From the NCBI GenBank assembly GCA_026391435.1, contig JAPLEJ010000050.1:38912-102911 (forward strand): DNA of 64,000 nucleotides, in the 5' to 3' direction. The position numbers were made by a program, and so were the translations under genes. Under the pieces are notes generated by a model, which ran no database searches, was not told the DNA's origin, and saw only the letters and a program-made list of their open reading frames with translations. Positions 3,094-56,102 of the stretch are shown here, piece by piece. Each line of letters begins with the position of its first letter. The first letter of the stretch is position 1. Origin of the DNA: Bacteroidota bacterium. Lineage in GTDB: Bacteria > Bacteroidota > Bacteroidia > Chitinophagales > Chitinophagaceae.

Positions 3094-3150
3094 ATGATAA
3101 AAACAAACAATATTTGGTGGTGGCATACAAACTCCGTTGGGGTACTGTAG
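3094..3150 (+). CDS. trpL: trp operon leader peptide MIKTNNIWWWHTNSVGVL*
   Basis: Manual translation: 18 codons with three tandem TGG codons (3115-3123), 83 nt upstream of trpE and followed by a terminator hairpin. Absent from the ORF track because of its length. Confidence 0.9.
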   Translation: MIKTNNIWWWHTNSVGVL

Positions 3151-3233: not shown

Positions 3234-4646
3234 ATGAAAAAGGTTATGATACAAACGGAGGTCACTAAAATGTTGGCCGATACTTTTACACCTGTAGGTA
3301 TTTACTTACGGTTAAGAGATCGTTTTCGTGACACTATATTACTAGAAAGCACCGATTCGCATGCTGCCGAAAATAGCTATTCCTTTATTGGAGTGAATGC
3401 GATTGGAGGTATCGAAATTTCATCTTTGAATCAAATTGAATTTAAGTATCCCAATCAGGAGCCAGAAAAAGAGACCATCAAAAATGTACACGATGCACCT
3501 GATCGTATTTGGTCCTATATGCAACAATATGAAATGCAAAGTACCAATATTAAAGAGGCTTCCTTTGGGCAAGGTTTGTATGGGTATACGACTTATGACG
3601 CCATTCCTTTTTTTGATACTATTGAATTTAAAAAAGAAGAAAACATTATTCCATTAATGCGATATAGATTATATCAATATGTTATTGCATTTAATCACTT
3701 TAAAGATGAAATATTTATTTGTGAAAATAAATTAGCTGGAGTGGATTCTGAATATGAAGCACTATTGTCTTATATCAAAAGTAAAGATGTACCCCAATAT
3801 CCTTTTTTTATAAAAGGAACCGAAACGGTGAATCAGACTGACGAGGAGTTTAAAAAAGTAGTAGAACAAGGTATCAAGCATTGTATGAGAGGGGACGTGT
3901 TTCAAATTGTATTGAGCAGGCGTTTTCAGCAATCTTTTCAAGGCGATGAATTCAATGTATATCGCACTTTAAGAAATATTAATCCTTCTCCTTATTTATT
4001 CTTTTTTGATTATGGTGATTATAAATTAATGGGGTCATCTCCTGAGGCACAAATTATTATTAAAAAGGGTAAAGCAGTAGTGCACCCAATAGCGGGTACA
4101 TTTAAAAGAAGTGGGGATGAGGCAGTTGATGCAATAATGACACAAAAATTACTGGATGATCCTAAAGAAAACGCCGAACATGTGATGTTGGTTGATTTAG
4201 CTCGAAATGATTTAAGTAGGGTTTGTAGCGAAGTCCGTGTTAAGCAATATCGCCAAGTACACTATTATAGTCATGTGATACATTTAGTGAGTGAAGTGGA
4301 AGGTACGGTTGCAGAGAATGCCAATCCTTTTCAGTTGGTTTCAAAAACTTTTCCAGCAGGAACCTTAAGCGGTGCTCCTAAATTTAAAGCCATGCAATTG
4401 ATTGATGCCATGGAACCTACTAAACGCTCTTATTATGGAGGTTGTATTGGATTTGTTGGTTTTGATGGTAGTTGTAATCAGGCCATTATGATTCGTACTT
4501 TTTTAAGTCAACAAAATACCCTTACATATCAAGCAGGTGCTGGAGTGGTCGCAGCGAGCGTTCCAGAAAATGAATTACAGGAAGTAAATAATAAATTAAA
4601 TGCATTAAAAACTGCCATATTGATGGCTGAAAAAATTCATGCATAA
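3234..4646 (+). CDS. trpE: Anthranilate synthase component I
   Basis: Chorismate-binding motifs (PIAGTFKRSGDE, DDPKENAEHVMLVDLARNDLSRV, AGTLSGAPKFKAMQLID). Confidence 0.96.
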   Translation: MKKVMIQTEVTKMLADTFTPVGIYLRLRDRFRDTILLESTDSHAAENSYSFIGVNAIGGIEISSLNQIEFKYPNQEPEKETIKNVHDAPDRIWSYMQQYEMQSTNIKEASFGQGLYGYTTYDAIPFFDTIEFKKEENIIPLMRYRLYQYVIAFNHFKDEIFICENKLAGVDSEYEALLSYIKSKDVPQYPFFIKGTETVNQTDEEFKKVVEQGIKHCMRGDVFQIVLSRRFQQSFQGDEFNVYRTLRNINPSPYLFFFDYGDYKLMGSSPEAQIIIKKGKAVVHPIAGTFKRSGDEAVDAIMTQKLLDDPKENAEHVMLVDLARNDLSRVCSEVRVKQYRQVHYYSHVIHLVSEVEGTVAENANPFQLVSKTFPAGTLSGAPKFKAMQLIDAMEPTKRSYYGGCIGFVGFDGSCNQAIMIRTFLSQQNTLTYQAGAGVVAASVPENELQEVNNKLNALKTAILMAEKIHA

Positions 4647-46674: not shown

Positions 46675-46705
46675 TTTGTCAATTAGGCTATTTAGATTAA
46701 CTTTG
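46675..46705 (+). promoter_or_regulatory. Bacteroidota-type promoter for pheA/aro operon: TTTG (46675-46678) - N19 - TAACTTTG (46698-46705)
   Basis: Consensus match ending 5 nt before the leader ATG. Confidence 0.78.
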
Positions 46706-46710
46706 ACCCG

Positions 46711-46797
46711 ATGAAAGCAAATATTAACAATTGGTTTTACTTTTTCTTTTATTTCTACTTTAACCAAAGTAGCCGGGTAGTATTTGTAAAAGCTTAA
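46711..46797 (+). CDS. Phe/Tyr-rich leader peptide MKANINNWFYFFFYFYFNQSSRVVFVKA*
   Basis: Manual translation: 28 codons with the run FYFFFYFYF, upstream of pheA and followed by a terminator. Not in the ORF track. Confidence 0.9.
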   Translation: MKANINNWFYFFFYFYFNQSSRVVFVKA

Positions 46798-46816
46798 ACG
46801 AAATAACTAAATATAC

Positions 46817-46846
46817 AATCCCGGCCCACCAGTCGGGATTTTTTTT
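46817..46846 (+). terminator. pheA-operon attenuator terminator
   Basis: AATCCCGGC-CCACCA-GTCGGGATT (one G-T wobble) then T6. CCCGGC (46820-46825) can instead pair with GCCGGG (46772-46777) in the leader ORF. Confidence 0.87.
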
Positions 46847-46897
46847 ATCCCTAACGTAAAGCAGGAAAAACATAAAAACGAATAGGATTTATCAAGA

Positions 46898-47734
46898 ATG
46901 AATAAAAAGGTGACGATACAAGGATACGAAGGGAGCTTCCACCAAGTGGCAGCCATGCATTTTTTCGGAAAAAATGTAGAAGTAATTACTTGTGATACTT
47001 TTAGAGAAGTGGTAAAAATAGGCGCTGATCTCAAATTGTCAGATGGCGCAGTGATGGCCATCGAAAATTCAATCGCTGGAAGTATTTTACCCAACTATAA
47101 TTTACTGCAAAAAAGTAATCTACAAGTGATAGGGGAAGTGTATTTATCCATCAGTCAAAATTTATTAACCTATCCAGGTGTCAAGCTAGAAGATATCAAG
47201 GAAGTGCATAGCCATCCTATGGCAATTTTACAATGTTTGGATTATTTAGAAAAATACAATTGGAAATTAGTTGAATCAGAGGATACGGCATTAAGTGCAA
47301 AATTGGTACACCAACATAAATACAAACATGTTGCAGCCATCGCTAGTAAATTAGCTGCACAGTTGTATGATTTGAATATAGTATCTCCTGACATACATAC
47401 TTTAAAAAATAATATTACTCGTTTTTTAGTGATGGCGCCCACGGCGGCTAAAATTAAAGTAGCAGATGCAAATAAAGGGTCTATCTATTTCCAAACGGAT
47501 CATTCTAGAGGTATCCTTTCCAAAGTGTTGGCTAAAATCGCGCAAGGAAAAGTAAACTTGAGCAAGTTGCAAAGTATGCCTATTCCTGGAAGCACATTTA
47601 AATATGGGTTTTATGCAGATTTGGAATTTGAGAACAACAAACAAATGGGAAAAGTATTGGAGGAAATAAAATCCCTTACGAATAGTTTGAAAATATTTGG
47701 TATGTATAAAAAAGGTAAAGTAGTTAAAGGTTAA
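46898..47734 (+). CDS. pheA: Prephenate dehydratase
   Basis: VTIQGYEGSFHQVAAMHFFG, AIENSIAGSILPNYNLL, NITRFLVMA; ACT-like C-terminus. Confidence 0.93.
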   Translation: MNKKVTIQGYEGSFHQVAAMHFFGKNVEVITCDTFREVVKIGADLKLSDGAVMAIENSIAGSILPNYNLLQKSNLQVIGEVYLSISQNLLTYPGVKLEDIKEVHSHPMAILQCLDYLEKYNWKLVESEDTALSAKLVHQHKYKHVAAIASKLAAQLYDLNIVSPDIHTLKNNITRFLVMAPTAAKIKVADANKGSIYFQTDHSRGILSKVLAKIAQGKVNLSKLQSMPIPGSTFKYGFYADLEFENNKQMGKVLEEIKSLTNSLKIFGMYKKGKVVKG

Positions 47735-47735
47735 T

Positions 47736-48904
47736 ATGGAATTTAAAGTATCACATAGATTAGAGGGAATTGGAGAATATTATTTTTCATCCAAACTACG
47801 CGAAATTGATGAACTCAATAAAGCGGGTAAGGGTATTATTAATTTAGGCATCGGAAGCCCCGATTTGCCACCACATCCTGAAGTGATCAAAGTATTACAA
47901 GAAGAGGCTAGTAAGGACAATGTCCATGCCTATCAATCTTATAAAGGTTCTCCCATTTTAAGGGAAGCCGTAGCAGAGTGGTATAAGAAGTATTTTAAAG
48001 TAGGAGATATAAATCCTGCTACTGAAGTACTTCCCTTACTAGGAAGCAAGGAAGGGATCATGCATATATGTATGACCTATTTAAACGAAGGCGATCAGGC
48101 GTTAATCCCTAATCCTGGTTATCCGACGTATACAAGTGCAGTTAAGTTAGCGGGCGGCACTCCGCTTTATTATGCATTAACTGCCGAAAACAGTTGGGCA
48201 CCTGACTTTGAAAATTTAGAAAAATCAGATTTATCAAAAGTCAAGTTGATGTGGGTGAATTATCCGCATATGCCAACAGGTCAAAGTCCTACTAAGCTAA
48301 GGAATTGTTTGAAAAATTAGTAGCCTTTGGAAGGAAGCATCAAATATTGATTTGTCATGACAATCCTTATTCCTTTATTTTAAATGATAAACCCGAAAGT
48401 TTATTGTCTATTGAAGGGGCGAAAGAGGTAGTGATCGAATTAAACTCTCTGAGTAAAAGTCAAAATATGGCAGGATGGAGAGTGGGCATGCTCATAGCAG
48501 CCGAGGACCGAATCAATGAAATACTTAGGTTTAAATCCAACATGGACAGTGGCATGTTTTTGCCTGTTCAATTAGCAGCGGCCAAGGCATTAAGCTTGGA
48601 TCAAAGTTGGTATGACTCCGTGAATAAAATATATACAGCACGACGTGAAAAAGTATTCGAATTATTAGATGTTTTAAAATGTGTTTATTCAAAACAACAA
48701 GTGGGAATGTTTGTATGGGCAAAAATTCCAACTACTTACAAAGATGGGTATGCGTTAAGTGATAAGGTATTGTATGAAGCGAATGTTTTTATCACACCTG
48801 GAGACATATTTGGTTCTGCGGGTAACAATTACATCCGAGTAAGTTTGTGTGGTTCATTAGAAAAATTTACTGAAGCAATTAAAAAAATAAAAGCATGCGT
48901 TTAG
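47736..48904 (+). pseudogene. Class I/II aminotransferase split by a frameshift near 48290-48320 (ORFs 47736-48320 and 48305-48904)
   Basis: First ORF ends NYPHMPTGQSPTKLRNCLKN*; second continues the fold (ELFEKLVAFGRKHQILICHDNPYSF...SLSKSQNMAGWRVG with PLP Lys). The frames differ by 1 nt. Confidence 0.8.
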
Positions 48905-49734
48905 CAGTGATTGGTATTGGTTTAATGGGTGGTTCGCTTGCATTGTCTTTGAAAAAGAAAGGCATTGTTTCCAAAGTCATTGGAGTGGATCAAAACATAG
49001 ATCACCAAAAGCAAGCCTTGCAATTGGGTATCGTAGATGAAGTGATGTCTTTAGAAGACGCTATCGCCGCATCGGATATCATTGCACTTGCAACACCAGT
49101 GAACGTAGCTGAAAAATTATTGCCGACTATTTTAAATTTAGTGAACAAGCAAGTTGTGTTTGATTTAGGGTCTACTAAGGAAAGTATTGTCAATGTCGCG
49201 AATACGCATTCCAATAAAGGAAGGTTTGTTCCAACGCACCCAATGTGGGGTACGGAATTTAGTGGTCCAGCAGCTGCGCAATCAGATGCATTTATAGATA
49301 AAGCAACCGTCATTTGTAATAAAACACAAATTGATCCAGACGCTTTACTACGTATAGAGCAATTGTATGAGCAGTTAGGGATGCATATATTATACATGGA
49401 TGCCATAAAGCACGATATCCATGTGGCTTACGTGAGCCATATATCGCATATTACTTCATTTGCACTGGCCAATACCGTGTTAGAGAAGGAAAAAGAATCG
49501 AATGCGATTTTTGAGTTAGCAAGTGGTGGGTTTGAAAGCACAGTGCGTTTGGCAAAGTCCAATGCTGAAATGTGGGTTCCCATCTTTATGCAAAACAAGG
49601 AAAATGTATTAGATGTGCTTAATGAGCATATTAGTCAACTTAGAAAATTTAAAGCAAGTTTGGAAAAAGAAAATCCAGATTACTTATTGGAGTTGATTCA
49701 AAATGCGAATAAGATAAAAAGGATTTTAAAATAA
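48895..49734 (+). CDS. tyrA: Prephenate dehydrogenase
   Basis: VIGIGLMGGSLALSLKKKG, DLGSTKESIV, PTHPMWGTEFSGP. Confidence 0.93.
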   Translation: MRLAVIGIGLMGGSLALSLKKKGIVSKVIGVDQNIDHQKQALQLGIVDEVMSLEDAIAASDIIALATPVNVAEKLLPTILNLVNKQVVFDLGSTKESIVNVANTHSNKGRFVPTHPMWGTEFSGPAAAQSDAFIDKATVICNKTQIDPDALLRIEQLYEQLGMHILYMDAIKHDIHVAYVSHISHITSFALANTVLEKEKESNAIFELASGGFESTVRLAKSNAEMWVPIFMQNKENVLDVLNEHISQLRKFKASLEKENPDYLLELIQNANKIKRILK

Positions 49735-49783: not shown

Positions 49784-51607
49784 ATGAAGAAGAAAGAAGA
49801 GATGAATGATACAAATGAATTGATAGAAGCGTCAAAGTCAAAAAAGACTTTTATAGAAATCGGCATCAATGATCAATTAGTAAAAGCGGTAACAGAATTG
49901 GGTTATACCCATGCTACTGAAATTCAGGAGCGTTCTATTCCAGTTTTGATTAGTGGAACAAAGGATTTTATTGGATTAGCACAAACGGGAACTGGTAAAA
50001 CGGCCGCCTTTGGTTTGCCCTTATTACAATTAATTAAAACAGCAGATAAATTTCCGCAAGCCTTAGTAGTTTGCCCTACAAGAGAATTGTGTATGCAAAT
50101 TGTAAGCGAATTAAATTTATTTAAAAAGCATCTTCCAGGTGTACAAGTATTAGCTGTATACGGAGGTACTTCAATAGGTTTACAAATTAAAGATTTAAAA
50201 AGAGGGGTGCAAATTATTGTAGCTACTCCAGGTCGTTTGATTGACTTAATCGAGCGCAAGGCGATTAACCTAGAAAAAATTGAATATGTGGTATTGGATG
50301 AGGCCGATGAAATGTTAAACATGGGTTTCCAAGACGACATTGAATTTATCTTAAAAAATACACCCAATAGAGAAAGTATTTGGTTGTTTAGTGCGACCAT
50401 GCCTGCTGAAATTAGAAAAGTAAGCAAGCGTTACATGAAAGAACCAGTAGAAGTAACGATTGGTAAAGTAAATGCGACAAACAAAAGTATTGATCACCAA
50501 TACTATTTAACTTCTGCACAGCATCGTTATGAGACTTTAAAAAGAATCATCGATTTTAATCCAGGTATTTATGGTATCATCTTTACTCGTACCAAGGCAG
50601 ATGCGCAAGATGTAGCACAAAGATTAACAAGAGAGGGTTATGATATTGATGCCATACATGGTGATTTAACACAACAACAAAGAGATAGGGTAATGGGTCA
50701 ATTCAGAGATAAAAGTTTGCAATTGTTAATTGCGACCGATGTGGCTGCTCGAGGAATTGATGTAAAAGGAATAACGCATGTGATCAACTTTGAATTACCG
50801 GATGATGTGGAAGTATATACCCATCGTAGTGGTCGTACAGGCCGAGCTGGAAGTCAGGGTATATGTATTTCTATCGTTCATGCTCGTGAATCTTATCGTT
50901 TGCGTCAGATTGAAAATATGAATAAGTGTACTTTTCATAAGTTAGATATCCCTAGTGGAAAGGATGTTTGTAGAAAACAATTTTTTCATGTGATGGACAA
51001 GTTAATGTCTACAGATGTAAGTCATGGTGATTATGAAACTTATGTACCTATGTTGGCCGAAAAATTTGCCGATATGACAAAGGAAGAAATTTTAAAGCGC
51101 GTCGCAGCTTTGGAATTTAATCGCTTTTTAAGTTATTATGAAAATGCGCAGGACTTAAATATAAGAGCTGCTGATAAAGGCCGTCGTGAACCCATGCAAC
51201 AACAGGATCGCAATCGCGACAGAGGTCGTCAAGAATTTGGCGGTGCAGATCGTGGTCGCGCTAGAACCAATGATCGTGGTATGGAGCGCAGTAGTAGCTC
51301 GGATCGCGGAAGTCGTGGTGCTGAAAGAGGCGCATCTGGCTATACTCGTTTGTTTGTGAACTTAGGTACTAAAGATGGTTTTTACAAAGCAAGCTTTTTG
51401 CAATTTATTTTAGATATGAGCGACTTAAGAAAAGAAGCTTTAGGAAAAATAGATATGCGTGATATGAACAGCTGGGTAGAAATTGAATCAGGTGCTGCAA
51501 AACAAATGATTAATGCAGTAGATGGTAAAAACTATAAAGGGCGTCGTATTAGAATGAATGATGCAGATAGTGGTGGTCCAAAAGGATTCAGCAAAAATGC
51601 AGGATAA
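49784..51607 (+). CDS. DEAD-box RNA helicase with Arg/Gly-rich linker and DbpA-like C-terminal RNA-binding domain
   Basis: AQTGTGKTAAFGLPLL, VLDEADEMLNMGF, SATMP, HRSGRTGRAG; linker QQDRNRDRGRQEFGGADRGRARTNDRG. Confidence 0.93.
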   Translation: MKKKEEMNDTNELIEASKSKKTFIEIGINDQLVKAVTELGYTHATEIQERSIPVLISGTKDFIGLAQTGTGKTAAFGLPLLQLIKTADKFPQALVVCPTRELCMQIVSELNLFKKHLPGVQVLAVYGGTSIGLQIKDLKRGVQIIVATPGRLIDLIERKAINLEKIEYVVLDEADEMLNMGFQDDIEFILKNTPNRESIWLFSATMPAEIRKVSKRYMKEPVEVTIGKVNATNKSIDHQYYLTSAQHRYETLKRIIDFNPGIYGIIFTRTKADAQDVAQRLTREGYDIDAIHGDLTQQQRDRVMGQFRDKSLQLLIATDVAARGIDVKGITHVINFELPDDVEVYTHRSGRTGRAGSQGICISIVHARESYRLRQIENMNKCTFHKLDIPSGKDVCRKQFFHVMDKLMSTDVSHGDYETYVPMLAEKFADMTKEEILKRVAALEFNRFLSYYENAQDLNIRAADKGRREPMQQQDRNRDRGRQEFGGADRGRARTNDRGMERSSSSDRGSRGAERGASGYTRLFVNLGTKDGFYKASFLQFILDMSDLRKEALGKIDMRDMNSWVEIESGAAKQMINAVDGKNYKGRRIRMNDADSGGPKGFSKNAG

Positions 51608-51661: not shown

Positions 51662-52747
51662 ATGGGAGACTTAACAGAACAACAAAAAAAAGTAAACATT
51701 TTATTAAAAAAATCACCTTTGATTATTTCAGGACCTTGTAGTGCTGAAACAGAGGAGCAAGTGATGCAAACAGCTATTCGTTTAGCGGCCACAGGTAAAG
51801 TAGACATTATGCGTGCAGGTATCTGGAAACCAAGAACCCGTCCTGGAAGTTTTGAAGGGATTGGTACGAAGGGGTTGCCTTGGTTACAACAAGCTAAAAA
51901 AGAAACGGGTTTGCCTGTAGCTATTGAAGTAGCCACTGCAAAACAAGTGGAAGATGCTTTGCATTTTGATGTAGATGTTTTATGGGTTGGAGCGAGAACA
52001 ACAGTGAATCCTTTTAGTGTGCAAGAAATTGCAGACGCTTTAAAAGGAGTTAAAGTACCTGTGTTAATTAAAAACCCAATCAATCCTGATTTAGAATTAT
52101 GGATTGGCGGGATGGAGCGTATTGCAAAAGCAGGTATCGAAGAATTAGGTTTAATTCACCGTGGATTTAGTTCTTATGGAAATACGGAATTTAGAAATGC
52201 CCCTATGTGGCACTTAGCTATTGAAATGAAGCGCCGTTATCCAGGTATCCCAATGATTAATGATCCTTCCCATATTTGTGGTCGTCGTGATATTTTACAA
52301 GAAGTAGCACAACAAGCCATGGACTTAGATTTTGATGGGTTGATCATTGAATCGCATATTGATCCTGATAATGCTTGGAGTGATGCAAAACAACAAATTA
52401 CACCTGAAGTTTTAAAGGAAATGTTGAATGCCATTCGTTGGAGAAAGGAAGATGTCGCATCAGCTGAATACCATGCGGCATTGGAAAAATTACGTCAACA
52501 AATCAATCAATTGGATGACGAGTTATTACAAGTTTTATCTACTCGTATGAAAGTGGCTGAAAAAATTGGAGAATATAAAAAGAACAATGACATCACCATC
52601 TTGCAAACCAATCGTTGGAATGAAATTTTAGAACGCGCAGTAGGTAAAGGAAATAAAATAGGATTAAGCGAGGATTTTATTACAAAGTACATGGATGCTG
52701 TCCATATGGAAAGTATACAGCATCAAAATAAAGTAATGAATAACTAA
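51662..52747 (+). CDS. Bifunctional DAHP synthase / chorismate mutase type II
   Basis: IISGPCSAETEEQVMQTA, RAGIWKPRTRPGSFEGIG, DPSHICGRRD; C-terminal CM domain LRQQINQLDDELLQVLSTRMKVAEKIGEYKK. Confidence 0.94.
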   Translation: MGDLTEQQKKVNILLKKSPLIISGPCSAETEEQVMQTAIRLAATGKVDIMRAGIWKPRTRPGSFEGIGTKGLPWLQQAKKETGLPVAIEVATAKQVEDALHFDVDVLWVGARTTVNPFSVQEIADALKGVKVPVLIKNPINPDLELWIGGMERIAKAGIEELGLIHRGFSSYGNTEFRNAPMWHLAIEMKRRYPGIPMINDPSHICGRRDILQEVAQQAMDLDFDGLIIESHIDPDNAWSDAKQQITPEVLKEMLNAIRWRKEDVASAEYHAALEKLRQQINQLDDELLQVLSTRMKVAEKIGEYKKNNDITILQTNRWNEILERAVGKGNKIGLSEDFITKYMDAVHMESIQHQNKVMNN

Positions 52748-52779: not shown

Positions 52780-53802
52780 ATGAAAAACTGGAAAGTTAAA
52801 TTGTCTACAAGTACAGTGTCATTTATATTAGATGGCAGGTTTAGTGCTATTGATAAATTAGTCAATAAAGCCAATGCCTTTTATATTACCGATGAAAATG
52901 TATATGCATTACATCAAAATAAATTCAAAGGTAAAAAAACCATTGTATTCCCTTCGGGCGAAGAGCATAAACAACAAGCCACGGTCGACTTTATAGTGGA
53001 GGCGCTACTTAATTTAGGGGCTACCCGTGAAGCCCTATTAATTGGTGTAGGCGGTGGCGTTGTGACCGACATGGTTGGCTATGTAGCTGGCATTTATATG
53101 CGTGGGGTGCAAGTGGGTTTTGTGCCTACCACTATTTTAGCCATGGTGGATGCAAGTATTGGAGGTAAAAATGGTATTGACGTGGGGGTATATAAAAATA
53201 TGGTGGGATTAATTAGACAACCTTCTTTTTTATTATACGATCTTGATTTTTTACAAACCCTTCCTTCTCATCAATGGGAAAATGGGTTTGCTGAAATCAT
53301 CAAACACGCTGCGATCAAAGATGCTAAAATGATGAAGGCATTAGCCAGTCACGATTTAGCGTTTTACCAAAAAAATAAAAAAGAATTAGCTGCACTGATC
53401 CAAAAAAATGTGCAAATAAAAATGAAAGTGGTACAAAAAGATGAGTTTGAAAAAGGCGATCGAAAGTTGCTGAATTTTGGACACACTATTGGACATGCGA
53501 TCGAAAATCAGCATGCTTTATTACATGGTCATGCCATTAGTATTGGAATGGTGTATGCGGCTAAAATATCACAAGTGTTACAAGGTTTTAATGATACAGG
53601 ATTATTGGTTGCAACCTTAAAGCAATATGGATTGCCTACGAATATGCATTTTAATATTGAGCAAGCCATGCAAATAATGCAAAAGGATAAGAAGAAGGCA
53701 ACGGCAGGTATGCAATATGTAGTATTAAAAAAAATAGGGCAAGCTATGTATGAAACCATACCCATGAAATCATTAGAAAAATTAATCAAGTTATATTCTT
53801 AA
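52780..53802 (+). CDS. aroB: 3-dehydroquinate synthase
   Basis: FPSGEEHKQ, GVGGGVVTDMVGYVAGIYMRGV, PTTILAMVDASIGGKNGIDVG, NFGHTIGHAIE. Confidence 0.96.
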   Translation: MKNWKVKLSTSTVSFILDGRFSAIDKLVNKANAFYITDENVYALHQNKFKGKKTIVFPSGEEHKQQATVDFIVEALLNLGATREALLIGVGGGVVTDMVGYVAGIYMRGVQVGFVPTTILAMVDASIGGKNGIDVGVYKNMVGLIRQPSFLLYDLDFLQTLPSHQWENGFAEIIKHAAIKDAKMMKALASHDLAFYQKNKKELAALIQKNVQIKMKVVQKDEFEKGDRKLLNFGHTIGHAIENQHALLHGHAISIGMVYAAKISQVLQGFNDTGLLVATLKQYGLPTNMHFNIEQAMQIMQKDKKKATAGMQYVVLKKIGQAMYETIPMKSLEKLIKLYS

Positions 53803-53803
53803 G

Positions 53804-55072
53804 ATGCGCGTGACTGTATATCCATCACATTTAAAAGGAGTCCAATTAGCTCCTGCAAGTAAAAGCAGTATGCAAAGGGCTTGTGCAGCTGCACTATTGC
53901 ATGTGGGTGAAACAGTGATTCATAATCCGGGTCATTCGAATGATGATATTGCAGCAATCGATGTAATACAAAAACTAGGTGCTGTTATTGAAAAAAATAA
54001 AGAGGGTATACATGTCCAATCATCTGGGGTAAAACCAATAGGTCCTGAAATGAATTGTGGGGAAAGTGGACTAGGTATTAGAATGTTTACTCCAATTGCA
54101 GCTTTATCCAATCAACCTATCCTAATTAATGGCAAAGGAAGTTTGGTCAAAAGACCGATGCATTTTTTTGATGACATTTTTCCAGCATTAGGCATACAAA
54201 TCAATTCAAACCAAGGATTTTTACCCATTCAAATTCAAGGACCATTACAAGCTGCCACTATCACAGTAGATGGGTCATTAAGTTCTCAGTTTTTAACTGG
54301 GTTATTAATGGCCTATGCTGCCAGTGATGCACATGAGTTTGAAATTAATGTATTGGATTTAAAAAGCAAACCCTATATCGATTTAACATTAGCAGTACTA
54401 AATGCTTTTGGATGGAATGTGGCACATAGAGATTATAAAAGTTTTCAATTTTTACCCCACGCGCCATTAAAAGCAAAAATCGAATATACAGTTGAAGGGG
54501 ATTGGAGTGGTGCTGCATTTTTATTAGTAGCAGGTGCCATTGCAGGCCCCATTATTGTAAAGGGGTTGCAGTTGAATTCAACACAAGCAGATAAAAAAGT
54601 ATTAGAGGCATTAAAAAATGCAAACGCAAATATTGAAATAAATGAGGATGAAATTAAAATAGGACCGAGTACATCATTAGCGGCTTTTCAGTTTGATGCA
54701 ACAGATTGCCCTGATTTATTTCCTCCCTTGGTCGCTTTAGCTTCGGTGTGTAAAGGGATTACGGAAATTAAAGGAGTAAATCGTTTGGCGCATAAAGAAA
54801 GTGATCGTGGGATAACCTTACAAATAGAGTTTGCTAAAATGGGTATTCGAATTGATTTAGAAGGGGACTTGATGAAAATACACGGTGGAACTGTAATTCA
54901 AGCATGTACCGTATTCTCACAACACGATCATAGAATTGCAATGGCTTGCGCAGTAGCCGCACTTTGTGCCAATGGCCCTATTGAAATAACAGAGGCAGAA
55001 GCGATTAATAAGTCCTATACCGATTTCTTTGAGCATCTTGAACAATTAGGTGCAAAAGTAGATATACAATAA
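53804..55072 (+). CDS. aroA: 3-phosphoshikimate 1-carboxyvinyltransferase
   Basis: APASKSSMQRACAAALL, CGESGLGIRMFTP, DGSLSSQFLTGLLMA, DHRIAMACAVAAL. Confidence 0.94.
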   Translation: MRVTVYPSHLKGVQLAPASKSSMQRACAAALLHVGETVIHNPGHSNDDIAAIDVIQKLGAVIEKNKEGIHVQSSGVKPIGPEMNCGESGLGIRMFTPIAALSNQPILINGKGSLVKRPMHFFDDIFPALGIQINSNQGFLPIQIQGPLQAATITVDGSLSSQFLTGLLMAYAASDAHEFEINVLDLKSKPYIDLTLAVLNAFGWNVAHRDYKSFQFLPHAPLKAKIEYTVEGDWSGAAFLLVAGAIAGPIIVKGLQLNSTQADKKVLEALKNANANIEINEDEIKIGPSTSLAAFQFDATDCPDLFPPLVALASVCKGITEIKGVNRLAHKESDRGITLQIEFAKMGIRIDLEGDLMKIHGGTVIQACTVFSQHDHRIAMACAVAALCANGPIEITEAEAINKSYTDFFEHLEQLGAKVDIQ

Positions 55073-55103
55073 ATTTCTTACCTTGTAATATTGAATTAAA
55101 GAC

Positions 55104-56102
55104 ATGAACAAATTTGGAACTTTATTTACGGTGCAAATATTTGGAGAATCACATGGTGCATGTGTGGGTATTACCATTGATGGTTGTCCTGCAGGTTTGC
55201 CATTAAGTGCATCTGATTTTACAGAAGATATGGAGCGTCGAAAAGGCGGAAAACAAAAAGGAACCACTCCAAGACAGGAGGATGATATTCCTATTTTCAA
55301 GGCAGGACTATTTAATGACATCACAACAGGTGCGCCCATTATGATGTTATTTGAAAATAACAATACTAGGAGTGGAGACTATGAAAAACAAAGAGCAGTG
55401 CCACGTCCAGGACATGCGGATTTTACAGCCCATCATAAGTTTGGCGGGTTTGAGGATTACAGAGGAGGCGGGCATTTTAGTGGAAGACTAACAGCAGCTT
55501 TAGTTGGTGCAGGTGTTGTTGCAAAAAAATTATTAAATGGAGTTCAAGTAGCTTCTCATATTGTAAGTATTGGAGGAGAAGCAGATTTGGAAAAAGGCCT
55601 TCAAAGAGCCATTGACAATAAAGACAGTGTAGGAGGTATCGTAGAATGTATTGTGAAAGGACTTCCGATTGGATTGGGCGAACATTTTTTTAATTCAGTC
55701 GAATCTTTATTGAGTCATGCAGTGTTTTCCATACCTGCTATCAGGGGTATTGAATTTGGAACGGGTTTTGCTGCTGCCAACATGTTTGGAGTGGAGCACA
55801 ATGACGCCATTTTAGATGCTAGTGGAAAAACTAAAACCAACCATGCAGGTGGCGTAGTTGGCGGATATACTAATGGTAATGATCTTGTGTTTAGAATAGC
55901 TGTAAAACCTACCTCTTCTACACCAAAGGAGCAAATAACACTCAATTGGGAAACCAATGAGCAAGAAAATTTTTCCGTAAAAGGAAGACACGATTTATGC
56001 ATTGCACTTAGAGTACCGGTTGTCTTGGAAGCGGTGACTGCTATTGTCCTTGCTGATTTAATGTTAATCGATCAAAAAATTCCAAGAGTCATTAAAAATT
56101 AA
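55104..56102 (+). CDS. aroC: Chorismate synthase
   Basis: FGESHGACVGITIDGCPAGLPL, RPGHADFTAHHKFGGFEDYRGGGHFSGRLTAALVGAG. Confidence 0.96.
   Translation: MNKFGTLFTVQIFGESHGACVGITIDGCPAGLPLSASDFTEDMERRKGGKQKGTTPRQEDDIPIFKAGLFNDITTGAPIMMLFENNNTRSGDYEKQRAVPRPGHADFTAHHKFGGFEDYRGGGHFSGRLTAALVGAGVVAKKLLNGVQVASHIVSIGGEADLEKGLQRAIDNKDSVGGIVECIVKGLPIGLGEHFFNSVESLLSHAVFSIPAIRGIEFGTGFAAANMFGVEHNDAILDASGKTKTNHAGGVVGGYTNGNDLVFRIAVKPTSSTPKEQITLNWETNEQENFSVKGRHDLCIALRVPVVLEAVTAIVLADLMLIDQKIPRVIKN

Follow-up and report, generated by a model that had tools for sequence, protein, structure and literature searches.

A putative phenylalanine/tyrosine attenuator, probably leaderless, upstream of the pheA-tyrA-aro operon in Chitinophagaceae, with counterparts in much of the class Bacteroidia

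Results

The window, i.e. the whole 64,000-nucleotide stretch of DNA analysed here, comes from a 1.9-Mb draft genome (84% complete) of a freshwater Bacteroidota whose named relatives are Sediminibacterium and other Chitinophagaceae. On its forward strand, a row of aromatic amino acid genes starts with pheA, encoding prephenate dehydratase (46898-47734; several NCBIfam matches, the best one under its curated cut-off), followed by a PLP aminotransferase (47736-48904) which is split by a frameshift into two overlapping ORFs in this assembly. The aminotransferase is read in a single frame in the close relative L031, and the split is probably an assembly error or else a recent mutation. Next come tyrA, encoding prephenate dehydrogenase (48895-49734; NF006307 above cut-off), a DEAD-box RNA helicase (49784-51607), a DAHP synthase fused to chorismate mutase (51662-52747; profile match) and the genes aroB, aroA and aroC (52780-56102; all above curated cut-offs). 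The helicase lies within the gene row, and none was detected between tyrA and the DAHP synthase in the other operons read downstream of pheA. The gene row behind the leader thus carries pheA, tyrA and shikimate-pathway genes, as an initial annotation of this DNA had held.

The region in front of pheA contains, on the same strand, a predicted promoter, a short ORF and a terminator. The promoter elements are TTTG (46675-46678) and, 19 nt further, TAACTTTG (46698-46705), the latter an exact match to TAnnTTTG; they correspond to the -33 and -7 elements of the Bacteroidota sigma-A consensus TTTG/TAnnTTTG (PMC6847099). The leader ORF (MKANINNWFYFFFYFYFNQSSRVVFVKA*; 46711-46797) has 28 codons and starts with the ATG at 46711. 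Its codons 9-17 (46735-46761) read F Y F F F Y F Y F, that is nine consecutive Phe/Tyr codons, in a near-frozen synonymous choice. Three segments of the leader RNA are considered in the following: segment 1 (GCAAATATTA; 46717-46726), segment 2 (46772-46787), which lies inside the ORF, consists of GCCGGG (46772-46777), GTAT (46780-46783) and the bases that follow and is the 5' arm of the antiterminator, and segment 3 (46813-46825), which runs from ATAC (46813-46816) to CCCGGC and serves as the 3' arm of the antiterminator and at the same time as the 5' arm of the terminator. The intrinsic terminator (46817-46846) has the form AATCCCGGC-CCACCA-GTCGGGATT-T6, with AATCCCGGC at 46817-46825, GTCGGGATT at 46832-46840 and six more T, and its hairpin has a predicted energy of -13.1 kcal/mol. 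Direct reading of the sequence confirmed the 28-codon ORF with its nine-codon Phe/Tyr run, the terminator and the complementary arm inside the ORF, all of them before pheA, and every coordinate given in the initial annotation was correct to the base.

Conservation was assessed in two sets of loci. The first comprised 110 loci fetched with the pheA of the window as query; 107 of them have a Phe/Tyr-rich short ORF upstream of pheA, the remaining three being cut short, either by the contig end or in the match. The second comprised 80 additional regions upstream of pheA, sampled at the level of genus, family, order and class; only genomes in which pheA was detected by the search entered it, namely 53 of 120 for the order and 42 of 149 for the class. 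Using a short ORF with at least six Phe/Tyr per ten codons as the criterion, leaders were present in 61 of these 80 regions: in 6/6 of the genus, 13/13 of the family, 21/27 of the rest of the order and 21/34 of the rest of the class Bacteroidia. The same Phe/Tyr density was reached in 1.5% of dinucleotide shuffles and in 0/80 reverse complements. The ORF and the hairpin, on whose conservation in close relatives the initial annotation had staked its reading at the sequence level, are conserved there and far beyond, and the search for F/Y-rich leaders upstream of pheA found them across Chitinophagaceae and much of Bacteroidia. Two loci with unexpected labels, L107 (Ignavibacteriaceae) and L040 (Comamonas), carry pheA with Chitinophagaceae-like leaders; these labels are probably binning or naming errors. 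Separately, locus L160 shows a strong match to the Flavo-1 RNA (positions 446-523, 78.6 bits) on the strand opposite pheA, upstream of its Phe/Tyr leader.

A trivial explanation would be a low-complexity, T-rich ORF that happens to lie before an unrelated terminator. Seven-codon Phe/Tyr runs do occur several times in this AT-rich genome (four on the forward and three on the reverse strand), without enrichment over a control pattern (six and four), and no aromatic-acid genes were seen beside two other clusters of such runs in the genome. Because the runs are no commoner than the control pattern, the run alone was not counted as evidence and the genome-wide count was dropped. What goes beyond chance is the position and the conservation of the leader ORF, not the run itself, and the chance explanation, which is contradicted by the leader's conserved position across the class and by the co-variation of the pairings presented below, is vanishingly improbable.

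Alternatively, the ORF might code for a small hydrophobic protein with an independent role and be unconnected to the terminator; the leader peptide is in fact identical in many species of the genus. Against this stands that synonymous sites are conserved as much as the amino acids: among 16 close relatives, the synonymous codons of the control run are identical in 0.985 of comparisons versus 0.793 for the Phe/Tyr codons of pheA, and those of the leader as a whole are 90-99% identical versus 64% for all pheA codons. Outside the family, moreover, only the aromatic run persists and the remaining residues change along with the RNA pairing. We therefore consider a protein with its own function extremely improbable.

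For 144 of the 148 leaders a terminator was called. Its 5' arm finds a pairing partner directly behind the control codons in 92% of these leaders. Permuting the partners between leaders showed that this pairing of segments 2 and 3 is specific: within the family, leaders paired with their own partner at a mean of -18.8 kcal/mol compared to -15.7 kcal/mol after permutation, and outside the family at -16.8 compared to -10.5 kcal/mol, with 0/5000 permutations as good in either group (kinship being ignored in this comparison). In a control independent of kinship, in which the partner was shuffled, the median z was -4.0 in the family and -3.2 outside. The pairing cores themselves are diverse (GCCGGG, CCGGAGG, GAGGAT, GCGGGA, CGAGAC, GGGAC, GAGAACT, CAAGG, TCAGGATTGT and ACGAGG). 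The antiterminator, which shares the 5' arm of the terminator, therefore changes in step with the terminator between species, and the pairing of CCCGGC with GCCGGG proposed in the initial annotation is borne out by co-variation within and outside the family. The proposed extension of this helix by GTAT and ATAC is plausible for the window, and relatives with GGGTTGTAT opposite ATACAGTCCC or ATACAATCCC (e.g. L009 and L110) favour it, but the minimum-energy fold of the window prefers TAGT/ACTA for the inner part.

In other systems, translated leader ORFs can work by peptide-dependent ribosome arrest, by Rho-dependent polarity or by translational control of the downstream gene, and the leader of pheA could act by one of these routes. 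We judge this very unlikely, given that nearly all leaders combine a U-run intrinsic terminator (the 144 of 148 above) with a co-varying antiterminator, and that the peptide outside the aromatic run is not conserved between families.

A third pairing can join segment 1, within the N-terminal codons, to 46778-46787 in the predicted full-length fold; a protector pairing of this kind would favour termination when the leader is not translated. In relatives, the codons for an N-terminal TKAY (ACAAAAGCAT) are perfectly complementary to ATGCTTTTGT, which lies in the MLLL tail. For this 1:2 pairing, 0/5000 permutations were as good within the family, where the median z against shuffles was -2.1; outside the family 6/5000 permutations were as good and the shuffle control gave nothing (z -0.2). 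In the window sequence taken alone the pairing is weak and beats 93% of shuffles. Together, the comparisons indicate that the 1:2 pairing is probably real in the family. A local hairpin, CTACTTT-AACC-AAAGTAG (46755-46772), was also considered; it gave 0/5000 in the family and co-varies only weakly outside it (157/5000), and was for this reason left out of the main claim.

The position of the control codons relative to the antiterminator is tightly constrained. From the last Phe/Tyr codon to the antiterminator arm the median distance is 10 nt (IQR 9-10), and in the diverse set this distance is the least variable one (MAD 2, versus 5.5 measured from the start codon and 12.5 from the stop codon). 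Toeprinting places the leading edge of a bacterial ribosome 10 nt past the A-site codon; a reach of 12 nt was taken for a ribosome at the stop codon in PMC4833913. For the window, the leading edge of a ribosome stopped at codon 17 would fall on 46771, the base immediately preceding GCCGGG. Folds were predicted with ribosomes represented as fixed, rigid footprints of E. coli dimensions. A footprint on the last control codon left the terminator arm able to pair upstream in 73/82 leaders of the family and 39/42 of the others; a footprint on the stop codon did so in 4/82 and 7/42, respectively. In these predictions, a kind of check that the initial annotation had suggested, a stalled ribosome thus frees the antiterminator arm in most leaders of the model and a ribosome at the stop codon does not, and the control codons are, by this model, positioned accordingly. 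Without any ribosome, the minimum-energy fold up to the terminator 5' arm is still the antiterminator in 75/82 family leaders.

Concerning the amino acids sensed, at least two Phe and at least two Tyr codons are found in 139/140 leaders, also where the peptide and the RNA have otherwise changed, and most operons read downstream carry tyrA as well as pheA. These comparative data support the earlier suggestion that the leader would sense Phe and Tyr jointly. They also argue against an attenuator that senses a single amino acid (e.g. Phe), with the Tyr codons as filler keeping the run aromatic and T-rich. Such a leader would have a precedent in enterobacterial pheL, which senses Phe alone, and would fit the excess of Phe over Tyr codons (means of 5.5 and 3.2 per family leader); we regard it as unlikely. 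Among 40 operons (L198-L237), the DAHP synthase gene was present in 25/25 with a leader versus 6/15 without one; as some of these 15 are contig-limited, the contrast is indicative, and it suggests that the leader guards the entry into the common pathway.

We further asked where transcription starts. In F. johnsoniae, TAnnTTTG ends with a G at position -5, and the start follows at a spacing of 4-5 nt (PMC6847099). Applied to the window, this rule predicts the transcription start at 46710 or 46711 on the forward strand and hence a 5' UTR of 0-1 nt. In the family, 89/97 leaders have a -7 box 4-8 nt upstream of an in-frame start (77 of them with an exact box), compared to 13/42 outside the family; as a control, an exact -7 box at the leader spacing precedes 4/56 ORFs of the window, or 12/56 if one mismatch is allowed. 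Since the ORF follows directly after the predicted promoter with this spacing in most family leaders, the Phe/Tyr leader ORF of Chitinophagaceae is probably leaderless. Among mRNAs, 5.5% are leaderless in F. psychrophilum according to a transcriptome report (PMC9723704), and 3.7% have a UTR of less than 10 nt in B. thetaiotaomicron (PMC7366714); both species belong to a phylum without Shine-Dalgarno sequences.

When the whole window was scanned for the combination of -7 box, short ORF and terminator, two places emerged, the pheA leader and position 3094. Position 3094 holds a trp leader (MIKTNNIWWWHTNSVGVL), which has a terminator and, at a distance of 7 nt upstream, an exact -7 box. It lies 140 nt before trpE at 3234, and the gene row from 3234 reads as a trp operon with trpE first and further trp genes behind it. 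A WW-containing ORF before trpE was found in 29/30 family genomes (29 plus the window); in 22 the -7 box adjoins its start, and the trp leader is probably leaderless in these. As this leader has the same layout, the design is not peculiar to pheA.

Discussion

Conservation, co-variation and geometry support the reading of the element as a ribosome-mediated transcription attenuator of the pheA-aminotransferase-tyrA-aro operon, which on these comparative grounds we hold to be highly probable. What we infer from the sequences is that transcription starts at the ATG, that the ORF is translated, that ribosomes stall on uncharged tRNA and that the operon is regulated in response, as follows. Transcription would start at the leader ATG or one base before it, so that a ribosome can load on the RNA 5' end while this emerges from RNA polymerase. 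If Phe-tRNA and Tyr-tRNA are both in sufficient supply, the ribosome would pass the nine control codons, reach the stop codon and cover segment 2, in which case the terminator would form and transcription would end before pheA. If either tRNA is uncharged, the ribosome would stall within codons 9-17 with its leading edge at or before 46771, leaving segment 2 free to pair with segment 3 once the latter is made; this pairing would block the terminator and allow the operon to be transcribed. A shortage of Phe or Tyr would thus very probably turn on the gene cluster via the leader.

The mechanism as such is known from the pheL type of E. coli, and there is a partial precedent in Flavobacterium. 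The enterobacterial pheL/pheA attenuator likewise comprises a short ORF with control codons, an antiterminator arm inside this ORF and an intrinsic terminator before pheA. It differs in that pheL has Phe control codons only, whereas the Bacteroidota leader mixes Phe and Tyr, is predicted to control tyrA and shikimate genes as well, and has a Bacteroidota promoter and probably no 5' UTR. Leaderless leader peptides, in which the attenuator ORF lies at or next to the RNA 5' end, occur in Actinobacteria and with Sinorhizobium trpL, but these belong to other phyla, use other promoters and respond to other amino acids than the Phe/Tyr leader. The best Rfam match, the model Phe_leader (RF01859), fits the window at the right place and over its full length with 32.0 bits (E 0.0006), below its gathering score of 55 bits, and the leader of the window is hence not a curated member of this family; at the gathering threshold, Rfam found no leader in the window. 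In Flavobacterium, the F. psychrophilum transcriptome report (PMC9723704) contains hints of leader-peptide attenuation at operons for amino acids and describes, in front of pheA, a structured 5' element that is shared with other genera of Flavobacteriaceae and has no Rfam hit; the passages covered here give no Phe/Tyr composition, alternative pairing, Chitinophagaceae or leaderless architecture. No account of a Phe/Tyr leader from Bacteroidota came up in a literature search of mainly open-access papers.

From the comparison of sequences, the element would accordingly represent a lineage-specific form of the classical mechanism that reads two amino acids, probably lacks a 5' UTR and extends class-wide. 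The probably leaderless architecture and the candidate 1:2 pairing had gone unnoticed in the initial annotation, and the trp leader of the same design goes beyond it as well. On a broader proposal we are evenly divided: the Phe/Tyr and Trp attenuators of Chitinophagaceae may form a lineage-wide leaderless class in which, given the lack of Shine-Dalgarno sequences in the phylum, initiation at the 5'-terminal AUG sets the ribosome close enough behind RNA polymerase for attenuation to operate, the mixed-codon leader integrating the supply of Phe and Tyr for the whole common pathway.

The present analysis places probable ribosome-mediated attenuation of the classical kind, absent from Rfam at these loci and so far only hinted at, at pheA operons across the class Bacteroidia with base-level detail and co-variation. 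If the mechanism works as proposed, translation must keep pace with transcription in the Phe/Tyr leaders, which would make transcription-translation coupling, not universal as seen in B. subtilis (PMC7858274), directly testable in Bacteroidota. The leader would then also provide a natural sensor for two amino acids simultaneously, and the probably leaderless small ORFs lend themselves to work on initiation in the absence of Shine-Dalgarno sites, which this phylum lacks.
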